Source of the DNA: Nitrospinota bacterium
GTDB lineage: Bacteria; Nitrospirota; Nitrospiria; Nitrospirales; UBA8639
Assembly (NCBI GenBank): GCA_022572725.1
Contig: JACZVJ010000015.1
Coordinates: 1 to 39,112 of the forward strand
Length of the DNA: 39,112 nt
Reading direction: 5' to 3'
Of the stretch, positions 510-7,029 are shown piece by piece. The notes beneath the pieces were generated by a model, which searched no databases, was not told the DNA's origin, and saw nothing but the letters and a program-made list of their open reading frames with translations. The position numbers and the translations under genes were made by a program. The first letter of the stretch is position 1. Every line of letters starts with the position of its first letter.

Positions 510-1058
510 ATGACAAGCCCTGGCCTCAAAACCAAACTCGAGTATTCGGATTACGTGCATATTCCCTCCGACGGAAAACGGTATGAATTGTTGGAAGGCG
601 ACCTCCACGTGACGCCAGCACCAAGCCCCCTTCACCAACGGGTGTCGAAACGGCTGCAGCGGGTGTTAGAAGCCTATTTTGAAGATACTGGCCGGGGAGA
701 AGTGTTTAATGCTCCCATTGACGTGATTCTGACTAACCAGGATGTGGTCCAACCCGATCTTGTGCTTGTGACCAATGCTGAACAAATTTCGCAACGTGGT
801 ATCGAAGGTCCTCCTCTGTTATTGGTCGAAGTGTTATCCCCTTCGACCCGAGAGTACGATCGCACCGCCAAGGCCAACCGGTATGCAATTTTGGGCGTGG
901 TTCATTATTGGATTGTTGATCCTGAAGTCCAGGCCTTAGAATGCTACCGCTCTGCTGGAAAAACATTTGAATTGATCGTTCAAGCTCACAGCCCCTCGGT
1001 TTTAACCCACCCTGACTGGCCTGACCTACACATCTCGTTAGCAGATTTGTGGGCCTAA
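510..1058 (+). CDS. Uma2 family (PD-(D/E)xK fold) endonuclease-like protein
   Basis: 182 residues, the usual size for Uma2/DUF820 proteins, which adopt the restriction-endonuclease fold and are common in cyanobacteria, Chloroflexi and Nitrospirota. The hallmark pattern is visible: YELLEGDL near residues 25-32, VVQPDLV with D83, LLVEVLSPST with E107, then a basic run with K121, and a YWIVDP motif near 133-138. The first three supply the acidic and lysine residues expected of a PD-(D/E)xK active site. The ATG at 510 has an AAAAGGA-like ribosome site about nine bases upstream. The cellular role of the family is not settled. It faces a second Uma2 gene tail to tail across a palindromic repeat; the two proteins share the family motifs but are clearly diverged, so this is an old paralogous pair. 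Confidence 0.85.
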   Translation: MTSPGLKTKLEYSDYVHIPSDGKRYELLEGDLHVTPAPSPLHQRVSKRLQRVLEAYFEDTGRGEVFNAPIDVILTNQDVVQPDLVLVTNAEQISQRGIEGPPLLLVEVLSPSTREYDRTAKANRYAILGVVHYWIVDPEVQALECYRSAGKTFELIVQAHSPSVLTHPDWPDLHISLADLWA

Positions 1059-1276: not shown

Positions 1277-1816
1277 TCAAAAGACGTCAGAAAGGGGAAT
1301 GAAGAGATCGGGAAACAAGGGAGAGTGAAGGGTATCCGAATGGTTGGTAAGGCTAGTCCGTTGGTACCCCGTTTCGCTGAGCGTGAATACCTCTACAGTT
1401 TTGGAGGTGGGGTCGACAATCCAATACTCCGTGACGCCCGCTCGGGCATAGAGCTTTTGTTTTGCCCCCCGGTCTCGTCGCTCCGAGGCAGAAGAAAGGA
1501 TTTCGACCACAAGGTCAGGAGCGCCCTGGATATTGGTTTCTTTGATGATCGAGAGCCTCTCCTTCGCAATATACAAAATATCTGGCTGAACAACATCGGT
1601 TTCGGAGAGCAGGACATCACAAGGTGCTTGGAGAGTCTCACCCAGATCATGTTCCTTTACGTATTGGTGGAGTTGGAATTCAAGATTGCGTGAAACCTTC
1701 TGGTGATAGGGAATGGGGACAGGAACCATGTAGAGGTCTCCATCCACGATTTCATACCGACGGTCTTCGGGAAGTTGAAGGTAATCTTGGTAAGTAAAAC
1801 GAAGAGCGGTGTTCAT
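1277..1816 (-). CDS. Uma2 family (PD-(D/E)xK fold) endonuclease-like protein
   Basis: 179 residues, with the same motif order as the Uma2 gene at 510-1058: YEIVDGDL near residues 21-28, VVQPDI with D79, LVVEILS with E105, a basic segment with K119, and YWIVDP near 131-136. The expected catalytic acidic residues and lysine are therefore intact. The ATG at 1816 is preceded only by a weak ribosome site. No partner gene (helicase, methylase or transposase) is adjacent, so the sequence does not show whether it acts in defence, repair or a mobile context. The family assignment is firm; the nuclease activity is inferred from the fold. Confidence 0.85.
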   Translation of the reverse strand: MNTALRFTYQDYLQLPEDRRYEIVDGDLYMVPVPIPYHQKVSRNLEFQLHQYVKEHDLGETLQAPCDVLLSETDVVQPDILYIAKERLSIIKETNIQGAPDLVVEILSSASERRDRGAKQKLYARAGVTEYWIVDPTSKTVEVFTLSETGYQRTSLTNHSDTLHSPLFPDLFIPLSDVF

Positions 1817-2342: not shown

Positions 2343-2468
2343 TCAGCCGCTGGTTTTGAGAGTCTTTGAATCGAGAACCGGGAGTTCGACGGGTAGGGGT
2401 TGGGCGCCTTTTAGTGCGCCGCGCTTGAAAAGCGCGTGGCCTTTCCCGCCCCGGCTGACCGGTTGGTG
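2343..2468 (-). pseudogene. Displaced copy of the topoisomerase A C-terminal tail
   Basis: Forty-one codons plus a TGA stop, starting five bases beyond the vapC stop, reproduce the last residues of the adjacent topoisomerase gene. Over the alignable core (starting [10 protein letters not shown]) 23 of 28 residues are identical, and about 62 of 84 nucleotides. Most differences are at third codon positions, so the copy diverged while under protein-level selection, that is, inside a functional gene. It keeps its reading frame and its own stop but has no start and no gene body. The remaining C-terminal residues differ. The likely reading is that this is an original or foreign tail left on the far side of vapBC after an insertion at the topoisomerase 3' end. 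A remnant of a deleted gyrA-type paralogue is the alternative. Confidence 0.8.
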
Positions 2469-2472
2469 TGAT

Positions 2473-2880
2473 TCAGGAAGGCAGGGTGATGAGATCTGAA
2501 TGCTTGGCGATATGGGTGAAGTCACGATCTGCGGTGAGAAGGGGGAATCCATTCTCACAACAGGTTGCGGCAATCAAAAAGTCGATGGGGCTTGCATGGA
2601 CCCCTTTGGCGCGGCAGTGGTTCCTCAGGCGAGCTGCTGCCACATGGGTTTGCCGATGGATGTCGAGGAGCGGGAAGGGCTCAAGGAGCTTGAGCAATCG
2701 GTCAAAGTCCCGTGAGGAGCGAACGCCGTCAAGGAGTTCTTGGAGAATGCTTCCGATCAGGAAAATCCCATCACCCTTTTCGAGAGTGGCACGGAACGTC
2801 CGAACGAACTGATTGGCCTCCTCCACCTGGGGGCGTCGCAACACCAGGGACCACACCGAGGTGTCAACGACGAGGTTCAC
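2473..2880 (-). CDS. vapC: Type II toxin VapC, PIN-domain ribonuclease
   Basis: 135 residues, one PIN domain. The metal-binding acidic set is intact: D6 in VVDTSVW, E48 in ILQELLDG, D100 in PIDFLIA and D118 in TADRDF. VapC toxins are Mg-dependent RNases, many of which cut tRNA or rRNA; the target here cannot be read from sequence. The start codon lies inside the 3' end of vapB (17-base overlap), the usual coupled arrangement. The stop codon lies five bases from the relic topoisomerase tail, so the toxin gene ends exactly at the junction of the presumed insertion. Confidence 0.92.
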   Translation of the reverse strand: MNLVVDTSVWSLVLRRPQVEEANQFVRTFRATLEKGDGIFLIGSILQELLDGVRSSRDFDRLLKLLEPFPLLDIHRQTHVAAARLRNHCRAKGVHASPIDFLIAATCCENGFPLLTADRDFTHIAKHSDLITLPS

Positions 2881-3076
2881 GGCCCCAGCGGTCGGTCTTG
2901 TAATCCCATTGTTTCCGAAATTCGATGGTTCCGAGGGCGCGGAGAATCCAGCGTTGCTGCCGCCGCTGGATGAACTCCTCGAGAGCGCGGGTGACCGTCT
3001 CTTTTTTCGTACGGAGCCCGCCGATTCTTTGGGCTTTTTCTAGGAGGGTGTCGTCAATGGCCAGATTCGTTGGCAT
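2864..3076 (-). CDS. vapB: Type II antitoxin VapB
   Basis: 70 residues from the ATG at 3076. The N-terminal segment MPTNLAIDDTLLEKAQ followed by TKKETVTRALEEFI is the short strand-helix-helix (ribbon-helix-helix-like) pattern of the VapB/DUF2191 antitoxins. The basic C-terminal part would wrap VapC. An in-frame ATG four codons upstream (3088) is possible, but it overlaps the perfect inverted repeat at 3087-3105, and a GGTGAAG ribosome site sits well placed before 3076, so the downstream start is preferred. It is the first gene of the pair. The repeat suggests autoregulation by the VapBC complex. Confidence 0.88.
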   Translation of the reverse strand: MPTNLAIDDTLLEKAQRIGGLRTKKETVTRALEEFIQRRQQRWILRALGTIEFRKQWDYKTDRWGREPRR

Positions 3077-3086
3077 GTTCTTCACC

Positions 3087-3105
3087 ATGTGTAGAGGCTA
3101 CACAT
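3087..3105 (-). promoter_or_regulatory. Probable VapBC operator (perfect inverted repeat)
   Basis: ATGTGTAG-AGG-CTACACAT is an eight-base perfect inverted repeat with a three-base spacer, placed 10 bases before the preferred vapB start. VapB-type antitoxins classically bind such palindromes to repress their own operon. Binding is inferred from position and symmetry. Confidence 0.65.
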
Positions 3106-3154
3106 CAGCGTATCCAACCTTCAAACGTTTGTCACACCTCATTCCGACCTCTCA

Positions 3155-5581
3155 TCAGCCGCTGTTGCTCTCAGCCTGGAATTGAGGAACCTCGACGGGC
3201 GGCGGTTCCGCGCCTTTCAGGGTTCCCCGTTTGAACATGGCGTGGCCTTTTCCGCCTCGGCTCACGGGGTGATATTTTTTGGCGGAGACAGGAAGTTTGG
3301 TGCCGTCCTCTTTGAGCAGAATGAGGTGGTCTCGTTTGTCCTTGAGGAGTCGCATGGCTAAGACCCGGTCTCCTCCCTCCAGCTTGATGACGATGACGCC
3401 GCGCCCAGGGCCGGAGAGGAAGGCCACTTCGTCGGGATCGCACAGCAGGACCCGCCCGCGTGCGGAGGCGACGGCGAGCACAGTGATGCCTGAGGGCTCG
3501 GGGAGGTATCCCACTCCGATCACTTCTTCGTCTTCCCTGACCTTCATGTACTTGCGGCCCAGCCGAGTTGAGGGTTCTTTGAGGGGGCCGAGTTCAAACC
3601 GGACGCCCATGCCCGTGCTGCTGACCGCGACGCCTTGCCCCATTGAAGGTGAATCCCCGTTGGTGGGCAGGTCAAAGAGGGGAAGTAAAGGGGCGGATGG
3701 GGTGGTGGTCACTGAAGGTGCCAGGCTCAGCATTCGTGGGTCCAAACTGAAGGCTGTAATAACCCGTTCGCCGTCCTTAAACTTAAAGAACTTTTGGGCC
3801 GGGTCCCCGTACCCGCTCCGGGCGGGTGGGATGTCGCCGATGCGGATGGTGTACGCACTCCCGTAGTTGGAGAAAAACACGATGGAATCCAAGGTGCTCC
3901 CCCCCAGTACGGTGAGGAGGCTATCGCCCTCGCGCAGCCGGGCTTTGCTGAGGTCTCTAATCACCCCTACCCGGCGAATCCACCCGTCGGTTGACACGGT
4001 AATGACCGAATCCTCACGAACCATGTAGGCTTCTGGGTCGAATTCCACTTCCTCTGTTTGCCGCCGTCCGACCTTGGTCCGCCGTTTGTCTCCATAGGTT
4101 TTGGCGACCTCCTGCAGCTCGCATTTGACCGCTTCCCACAGTTTGGGCTTGGAGGCCAGAAGCGTCTCAAGCTGCGTGGCTTGACGGCGCTTGTCCGCAA
4201 GCTCGTCCAGCATTTTTTGGATTTCAGCCTGGGCGAGCTTGTAGATCGGGGTCTCCAGAATCGCCTCGGTTTGAGAGGCGTCGAGGGCGAATCGGCGTTT
4301 CAGTTTTTCAGCGGAGTCCGCCTTTCCATGGCTTTGGCGGATAATTTTGAGGACCTGGTCGAGGGCGTCAAAGATCGTCTTAAACCCGGTCAAGATGTGA
4401 ATGCGTTGTTGCAGGACCCGCAGGTCGTAGGCAAAACGCCGCTGGACCGTCTGGAAGCGAAACTCCACGAATTGCTCGAGGATTCGCTTGAGGTCGAGAC
4501 GTTCCGGTCTGGTGACCGGAGCCCCCCGTACGGGGATCAAGCAAGTGAGATTCACCGAAAAATTGTTCTGAAGCGGGGTGTTTTTGAACAGGTAGGCCAT
4601 GGCGAGTTGGGGGTCGGCATCTTTTTGGAGTTCCAGCGCGATCCGCACCTCGGTGGTGGACTCGTCCCGCACATCGAGCAGTTGCGGAACTTTACGCGCC
4701 CCAATCAATTCTCCAATACGTTCCACAATGGTGGCCTTGTCGACGGCAAAAGGAATGGAAGTAATGATGATCTCGGATTTGCCGTACGCGGGAGGTTCGA
4801 CCGTGAATTCTCCACGAAGCCGGACCGATCCCTGCCCGGTTTCGTAAATTTCGCGCAGTTCCGTCCGGGTATTGAGAATTTCCCCGCCGGTTGGGAAGTC
4901 AGGCCCTTTGATGGATTTCATGAGGTCCGAAACAGAGCAGTCCCGGTTTTCAATCAGCGTGATGGCCCCCTCGATCACTTCACCCAAATTATGGGGTGGG
5001 ATATTCGTCGCCATCCCTACTGCGATCCCTGTCGATCCATTGACCAGGAGGTGCGGAAACCGTGACGGGAGCACTACAGGTTCTTGGTCTTTCCCATCGT
5101 AATTCGCTTGCAAGTCCACGGTGTCTTTGTTGAGTTCTGAGAGCAATTCGAGGGCGATGGGAGTCAGCCGGGCCTCGGTGTAGCGGTAGGCGGCAGGCGG
5201 ATCTCCATCGAGGCTGCCAAAATTCCCGTGACCGTCTACCAACGGGGCCCGTAAGGACCAGGGCTGTGCCATGCGGCACATCGCCTCGTACACGGCAGCA
5301 TCCCCATGGGGGTGCCATTCCCCGATGACTGAACCTACGACCTTGGCGCTTTTGATTGGCGACCGTTCGGGAATGAGTCGATGGTTGTGGAACATGGAGA
5401 AAAGAATGCGGCGCTGGACGGGTTTAAGTCCGTCCCGCACATCGGGGAGGGCCCGTGAGGTAATCACCGACAGGGCGTAGTTGAGATAACGCTGGCGTGT
5501 GGTTTGGTCCAGAGGGACAGAGGTAATGGATTCCAGGGCTGAGCCCCCGCCCGTGAGGAGTGGGGGTTTTTTTCGTGTCAT
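3155..5581 (-). CDS. parC: Type IIA DNA topoisomerase subunit A (ParC/GyrA type)
   Basis: 808 residues. The breakage-reunion domain starts near residue 27 ([29 protein letters not shown]) and carries the catalytic tyrosine Y134 in AYRYTEARL. The quinolone-determining region reads [12 protein letters not shown], with alanine (A95) where E. coli has GyrA Ser83/ParC Ser80, and E99 matching ParC Glu84. A coiled-coil/C-gate region follows (about 370-490), then a beta-pinwheel-like C-terminal domain from about 520. A GyrA-box-like SRGGKG sits close to the very C-terminus. GyrA and ParC cannot be separated with certainty, and no B subunit is adjacent. The start lies 11 bases after the M23 peptidase stop, so the two are probably co-transcribed. 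Its last 38 residues are duplicated beyond vapBC. Confidence 0.93.
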
Positions 5582-5592
5582 CGATTGAGTTT

Positions 5593-7029
5593 CTAAAAAT
5601 CCGATTGCGTCGTGGAGCCAAGGGGCGCCGGGCCCAATGTTTGAGGAGATAAGATCTCCGGCTCGGCCTGCTCGTGTTTTCTGAGCTTGGCGCTAATTCG
5701 GGTTTTAACCCAATGGGGATCCCACCATTCCAGGGGGTTCACATGGACTCCGTGCAGAAGCAGACTGAAGTGGAGATGATCCCCCGCCGCTAAGCCGGTG
5801 GTCCCGGACCGGGCGATGATGTGTCCCTTTGCCACCCGATCGCCCTTTTTCACTTCAAACGAGGAAAGGTGTGCGTAAAGTGACTGTAACCCGTATCCAT
5901 GATCGAGCACGATGGCATTCCCATAGATCCCCAAGAACTCGGTTAACACCACCACCCCGCTGTTTGCTGCTTCCACCGGGTACTGCTTGGTCACGGCTAA
6001 GTCAAACCCGAGATGGTCTTCCGAATCCACCACCTTGCCTTGGTAAAGGTAATTCCTGTGGTCTGCAAAGGCTGACTCGACCTGGGAATTGGAGAGTTGG
6101 AGGAAAGGCCCTTGCCACACAAATTCCTGTCGGGTGTGGGTGGACAAATCGAGGAGCTGTTCATCGTTGATGCGACGCAGCTTGCTGTTCACCTCAAGGA
6201 AATTTTTGAGGTTGTTCCCCTGGTCTTCAATGTCAGGAGTTTGGGCGATGATAGGCATGATGGTGTTGGTAATAAACCGGTCGGTAATACGAATGCGCCG
6301 GGTTCGCCATTTTTTGGACCTCACTCGGAGGTCAAGCGTATGGATGGCATGGTTGCCCAGTCCATCCTCAGCGACCAATTGAATGGGCTCGTCGGCAGGC
6401 AGGTTGAAGGGAAAGGCAATAAGGGAAAAGTGACTGAATTCCTCGGGCATCGGATACCCTGGGAAAAAGGCAGGGCCGATTTGGATGCCATATCTGGTTG
6501 CATCCTCCGAGACCCGATAGAATACGACTCCCGACCCTCCTTGGGAAATGGGGAGTGGTGAGGAAAGAATCTCCAACCGGGGAGGGGTGAATTTAACCGT
6601 AAAATCCTGGTTGAGTCGCGCCCAATTCCCTTCAAACAATTCCCGCCATGAGTAGTCTCTGGCTGTCACGATCAGGGAAGCCGGTCCCCTTCGTCGGGGA
6701 ATCCCCCCATCGGCATAGGGGGTAATTTCGAACTCAAATGAATGCTCCGTTCCGGCTTCTAAGGACAGTTCACCGTGAGTAGGGAAGTGCTGGGCGGCAA
6801 GCGAAAAGGTTTCAAGGTTCTGGACAATGCGGATGGAGACTTCTTGGAGGCCGGTTTCGTCATCCTCGATTCGAAGGGAGAGCAAGGTCGCTGGCCCCAC
6901 TACCGTGAAGGGCTCCTTAAGAATAATGCGAGGGGGGGTCTTGTCACCCCAGCGGATCCCGGCTACCAGCACCAGGTAGAGGGCAAGGATGCCAACCCCA
7001 AGCAAAATCAATAAGTTTTTCTTGGACAC
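5593..7029 (-). CDS. Membrane-anchored M23 (LytM-type) metallopeptidase
   Basis: 478 residues from a GTG start. Residues 5-24 form a single hydrophobic segment (signal anchor or signal peptide), followed by about 300 residues of beta-rich periplasmic sequence without a recognised domain. The M23 domain lies at about 335-432: H339 and D343 in HLGFD, H387 in YAHL, and H418/H420 in DHLHFS are the expected zinc ligands and catalytic histidines, so it should be an active endopeptidase acting on peptidoglycan cross-links. The C-terminal tail after [10 protein letters not shown] is short and proline-rich. It is upstream of, and nearly abuts, the topoisomerase gene. Its long extracytoplasmic N-terminal region resembles other Gram-negative M23 proteins with folded leader domains. 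Confidence 0.9.

Follow-up and report, generated by a model that had tools for sequence, protein, structure and literature searches.

The window, the whole 39,112-nt stretch of DNA that we analysed, is contig C168 of G000, a draft genome of 3.17 Mb in 221 contigs (3% contamination) whose closest named relatives are Nitrospirales bins. Its minus strand carries, in order, an M23 peptidase gene, a gene for an 808-aa topoisomerase subunit A, vapB, vapC and then a second copy of the topoisomerase gene's tail. The topoisomerase gene is intact (3155–5581, minus strand) and its product matches the GyrA/ParC family (PF00521, 1e-140; PF03989; NF004044). We call it ParC-like because parE lies directly after it in relatives and because G000 has a separate gyrA elsewhere, on contig C46. 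In G000 itself, parE is on contig C183. Since C183 starts in a repeat that is also found just 3′ of the tail copy, C168 and C183 are probably neighbours; these repeats are dispersed in G000.

A second topoisomerase A gene corresponding to that of the window is present across the family at 70–78%. Other families of the order match the window's parC just at the gyrA level, about 43%, and its closest outside relatives are Myxococcales (51%) and Planctomycetes bins, a distribution that may reflect acquisition of the gene by the family.

Downstream of parC, vapB (2864–3088, minus strand; PF09957, 3.5e-19) and vapC (2473–2880, minus strand; PIN domain PF01850, 2.7e-14; NF047959 above cut-off) form one operon with a 17-nt gene overlap, and the vapC stop codon lies at 2473–2475. 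The palindrome TGTGTAGCCTCTACACA (3088–3104, minus strand), conserved in homologous loci, is the presumed VapB operator. Farther upstream, a -35-like element, TGTGACA (3130–3136, minus strand), aligns with TTGACA-like hexamers at the matching place in the other 27 homologous vapBC loci and forms the left end of the conserved cassette. The constant unit comprises a TTGACA-like -35 element about 60 nt upstream of vapB, a palindrome of the TGTGTAG-n3-CTACACA type, vapB, vapC and its stop codon. Beyond these two limits, the loci have nothing obvious in common unless they are orthologous, and no conserved sequence was found among homologous loci 3′ of the vapC stop, the place where an integron gene cassette would have its attC site. 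With a VapB of PF09957, a PIN toxin of PF01850 and a palindrome upstream of vapB, the window's genes themselves appear to be nothing out of the ordinary among type II VapBC systems; several of the order's families have VapC homologues at 59–73% identity.

The second tail, which we call the relic, is a 126-nt in-frame copy of the parC tail (2343–2468, minus strand) with its open reading frame and stop codon preserved. Its counterpart is the functional end of parC itself (tail 1; 3155–3271, minus strand). A first-pass annotation had reported this same-orientation copy and placed it five bases after the vapC stop; the copy is real and immediately adjacent to vapC, but the spacing is 4 nt and true homology sets in a few bases inside 2468. 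In a repeat search, the two copies have 76% identity over a gapless core of 80 nt, with a spacing of 806 nt, and they correspond over about 120 nt overall, the alignment extending from a CAC/CAA codon through the stop codon. Their local DNA alignment scores 43, compared with a maximum of 17 in 300 shuffles, and whole-genome tblastn recovers the relic at E = 5e-10.

The same annotation had observed that the tails differ mostly at third codon positions, which our counts confirm. Over the first 31 aligned codons, tail 1 and the relic differ 6, 2 and 19 times at positions 1, 2 and 3, respectively (19 of 27 at the third). The excess has a binomial P-value of 0.026 against a 1:1 ratio between positions 1+2 and position 3, the expectation for a relic that has been drifting for as long as tail 1 has evolved. 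Since the differences are mainly at third positions, most of the divergence would have arisen while both tails were coding, and the bias is consistent with a relic that ceased to code only recently.

Between the two tails, vapB and vapC are the only genes; the integrase that had been noted as missing from this interval is indeed absent. No identical att core is present in both tails, their longest common run being about 11 nt within the conserved GGKGHA codons. At the ends of the vapBC cassette we found no inverted repeat, terminal inverted repeats included.

Dispersed repeats follow the relic directly (1921–2342, no strand assigned), and pieces of them recur elsewhere in the genome: on C183, where they lie upstream of parE, and on further contigs. 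Compared to the regions downstream of relatives' parC, the entire flank (1–2342) gives short repeat matches only. The repeats at 1–140, 1921–2080 and 2240–2289 are common to C183 in equal order and orientation, but the cargo differs, being Phd-PIN on C183 and a pair of Uma2 genes in the window. The Uma2-family genes (510–1058, plus strand, and 1277–1816, minus strand) are convergent and lie between the relic and the contig start.

Placement of the two tails

The first-pass annotation had proposed that an integrating element supplied parC with a replacement tail, which would make tail 1 the newcomer. In the gene-body tree, the window's parC is sister to genera g3 and g7 (support 95/97), and the upstream M23 gene and parE both put G000 outside g3+g7 as well. 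Tail 1 alone (40 codons) is placed on the gene-body branch in the protein and DNA analyses alike, again as sister of g3+g7. The relic is best placed inside these two sister genera. Forcing it to be the sister of tail 1 costs 9.8 (protein) or 9.3 (DNA) lnL, with AU P-values of 0.08 and 0.05, respectively, borderline outcomes of topology tests on only about 40 codons.

Counts of differences per 93 sites run from 14 to 23 between the relic and g3 tails, from 22 to 26 between tail 1 and g3 tails, and from 5 to 18 among the g3 tails themselves. The relic also has the state PVELPVLDS of g3 and g7, whereas tail 1 retains the other genera's pattern, P.F..E. Because tail 1 places with the gene body, M23 and parE, while the relic falls inside g3+g7, it is the relic and not the functional tail that looks imported. 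The evidence favours, rather than proves, a native tail 1 and an imported relic, which reverses the direction that had been proposed: the functional tail is native-looking and the relic foreign-looking (AU P = 0.05–0.08). The window's vapC has 65% identity to g3 vapC and belongs to a separate clade; therefore, vapBC and the relic need not have come from one donor.

The parC–parE junction in relatives

With a whole-protein query, no second parC tail was found at E ≤ 0.01 in 79 relatives, none of which belongs to the genus of G000. A full second parC at this place, which the annotation had named as contrary to its reading, was likewise found in no relative searched. Among the family loci that were fetched with enough downstream sequence, the window's locus alone has vapB or vapC matches after parC. 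These comparisons with other genera support the view that vapBC after parC is an insertion. The empty site that had been expected was thereby found in part: there are single-tail relatives that lack vapBC, but none is of the same genus and a precise empty site is missing here.

Most genera have a short parC–parE interval, such as the 193 nt of the g7 genome G012. In g3, its contents include Phd-PIN, a PIN_3 toxin gene, ParD- and HigA-type antitoxins and a clan AA protease, together with a DNA methyltransferase gene in one genome. The junction is a hot spot for toxin–antitoxin and modification genes in g3, and it is a toxin–antitoxin landing site in G000 too. The g3 hot-spot loci are L072:10390–14935, L066:10385–12672, L068:2555–5455 and L088:10375–17753. 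By virtue of the Phd-PIN, PIN_3, ParD, HigA and methyltransferase genes in relatives, the interval is like other accessory-gene hot spots between core genes, and it differs from them in that, after some insertions here, pieces of the upstream core gene's tail remain.

A narrower tail query recovered one further decayed second parC tail, in the g3 genome G014 (locus L072, E = 0.009); its score of 67 against a shuffle maximum of 48.5 is weak by itself. The gene order in G014 is parC, the PIN_3 gene accompanied by a putative antitoxin without any Pfam match, other genes, the decayed parC tail and a Phd-PIN pair. The functional parC of G014 has an altered end, DTENI*, and the decayed tail leads into the Phd-PIN promoter, as does the intact tail in G010. 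A different toxin–antitoxin pair in the sister genus g3 thus appears also to have left a decayed copy of the parC tail at the parC–parE site. In G000, a Phd/YefM-PIN pair lies just upstream of parE on C183 (L202:493–1217), with about 77% DNA identity to the pair in G014.

Duplicated gene ends at other vapBC loci

We compared the 300 nt upstream of vapB with the 150 nt downstream of vapC and applied a threshold score of at least 36. Four of 28 vapBC loci, which are partly orthologous or overlapping (e.g. L052 and L159) and not all independent, reached the threshold, compared with 5 of 648 control genes (0.8%). The difference has a Fisher P-value of 0.0003, or 0.003 without the window; the latter is the fair figure because the test was designed after the window's case had been seen. 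Gene-based controls were used because they are matched to the question. Random-position controls are noisier (a score of at least 36 in 2.5%), and the vapBC loci are enriched against both control types. The phylum-wide search brought just distant VapC homologues, and the sample therefore stays at 28 loci. At the remaining 24, a duplication is not detectable; either duplication beside vapBC is not universal, or it decays.

The four positive loci are the window (parC tail), those of G189 and G061 (permease 3′ tails; 47 nt at 91% in G189 and about 31 nt in G061) and that of G109 (oxidoreductase 5′ end). At all four, no more than about 25 nt separate the vapC stop from the start of the downstream copy. 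Other vapBC cassettes beside duplicated host-gene ends, as the annotation had envisaged, do therefore exist. These copies of the vapBC lineage lie between host-gene ends as well, 3′ ends in G189 and G061 and a 5′ end in G109. In G109 (L160, about 4750–6200 in vapBC orientation), three copies of the oxidoreductase N-terminus surround vapBC, the two decayed ones resembling each other more than the intact downstream gene; the orthologous g19 loci retain the upstream oxidoreductase copy.

Single-tail sites without vapBC were found for both G189 and G061, in congeners. In four congeners of G189 (G072, G146, G139 and G129; genus Nitrospira), an intact permease gene is joined directly to a small metal-binding-type gene, the one that lies 3′ of the relic in G189. 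Both permease copies of G189 are partial, the upstream piece being itself truncated; therefore, the host gene is not preserved there, and its preservation in working order, which had been suggested, does not hold as a rule. The G189 copies look like sisters because both have CTCGACATCGTG, which is absent from the nearest relatives, and the locus fits a true local duplication. For G061, the permease of its congener G049 continues at once into sequence that lies about 446 nt past vapC in G061, where the G061 flank resumes. G049 has no vapBC, no second permease tail and no extra gene. The G061 insert consists of vapBC, a diverged permease tail and another gene, and the second tail is therefore part of the incoming DNA.

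Origin of the second tail

From the anatomy of the window's locus, its recurrence, the absence of vapBC at this site in relatives and the grouping of the tails, we infer, with a probability of about 0.55, that a foreign parC tail from a g3/g7 relative accompanied the vapBC cassette into the parC–parE hot spot. The cassette is self-contained, running from the -35 element to the vapC stop, and sits in the parC–parE junction. The incoming DNA would derive from a related lineage, with vapBC already adjoining the 3′ fragment of a g3/g7-like parC, and one-sided, homology-guided recombination would join it to the chromosome at the matching end of the gene. The native parC tail would be kept in place and functional, and the foreign tail fragment would be left as a scar directly 3′ of vapC. 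An intact donor arrangement was not found.

Several other histories would yield a similar layout. A simple long target duplication within the lineage of G000, with the host tail copied at the insertion of vapBC and divergence of the two copies afterwards, is unlikely in our judgement. It is the classical form of restriction–modification insertions according to PMC3874152 and PMC1643837, the sister-like copies of G189 resemble it, and the tests stop short of firmly rejecting the relic as sister of tail 1 (AU P = 0.05–0.08). However, the relic has the PVELPVLDS state of g3 and g7 where tail 1 has P.F..E, its open reading frame and stop are intact, and its third-position bias is excessive for a long-drifting relic. 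We also weighed a foreign parC that once stood in tandem, with vapBC in between, and of which a deletion spared only the tail. Deletion remnants are generally common, and such a remnant would account for a diverged, coding-like tail; yet no relative searched has a full second parC there, and the relic begins immediately 3′ of the vapC stop, like the copies in G061, G189 and G109, which disfavours independent deletions and leaves this history quite unlikely.

It is improbable that vapBC brought tail 1 into the 3′ end of parC and displaced the host tail, now the relic. The layout is compatible with such an exchange, and two g3 genomes, G014 and G002, have a functional parC with a different end, ENI*, next to a PIN toxin gene that has been inserted; therefore, new ends can arise by insertion. 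Against this stand the grouping of tail 1, but not of the relic, with its own gene body, the missing integrase, an att-like identical core of at most about 11 nt and the lack of anything conserved past the vapC stop. We give very little credence to an assembly chimera in the metagenome bin: the bin is fragmented (221 contigs, 3% contamination) and dispersed repeats flank the relic, but relic, vapBC and parC are contiguous, the vapC–relic junction has no repeat, and comparable scars are found in other assemblies.

The preferred reading, arrival of vapBC with a foreign tail, has a known counterpart. PMC3874152 describes restriction–modification systems as inserting with long, variable target duplications, on the order of 100 bp, unlinked to mobile elements. 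Such insertions were found from a comparison of two Helicobacter pylori strains, as PMC1643837 relates, and are credited to Nobusato et al. 2000 in PMC3874152, PMC3031569 and PMC1643837. Similar apparent mobility has been attributed to toxin–antitoxin systems (PMC2654758). The features shared with our case are an addiction-type module between direct target copies of about 100 bp, the lack of a transposase and single-copy relatives; here, we find direct copies (80-nt core, about 120 nt), no transposase, and single-copy relatives, the last more strongly at G189 and G061. Furuta 2010 is reportedly the direct source for long target duplication. In contrast to the known insertions, which involve restriction–modification genes, the module here is vapBC, and the copies are just 76% alike, one of them probably from another genus. 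That identity and the relic's placement argue, at borderline AU P-values of 0.05–0.08, against an origin of both copies from the recipient's own target.

Integrative elements with tRNA-type attachment likewise target a gene 3′ end and leave the gene whole, but here there is no integrase and no identical core, the functional tail is apparently native and the cargo is about 0.66 kb. Our literature search returned no report of a toxin–antitoxin pair shown to insert in this way, a result that does not prove absence. The case is probably a variant of insertion with long target duplication in which the second copy is the donor's homologue rather than the recipient's target. It would extend the mechanism proposed for restriction–modification systems to a toxin–antitoxin family, and it would add that a duplicated copy may come from a foreign source.

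How chromosomal toxin–antitoxin pairs move without a surrounding mobile element is an old open question. As a tentative generalization, with the odds against it, fixed-end vapBC cassettes, bounded by the -35 element and the toxin stop, might act as mobile units of the smallest kind: lacking a recombinase of their own, they would enter gene ends along with a piece of the donor's homologous gene, and the diverged scar left behind would be a record of the donor lineage. Should such tail scars prove general, they would mark both insertions and the lineages that donated them, they could be counted from genome to genome, and the question would therefore become testable by sequence comparison. The recurring scars suggest that toxin–antitoxin pairs enter gene ends by a poorly understood recombination route.
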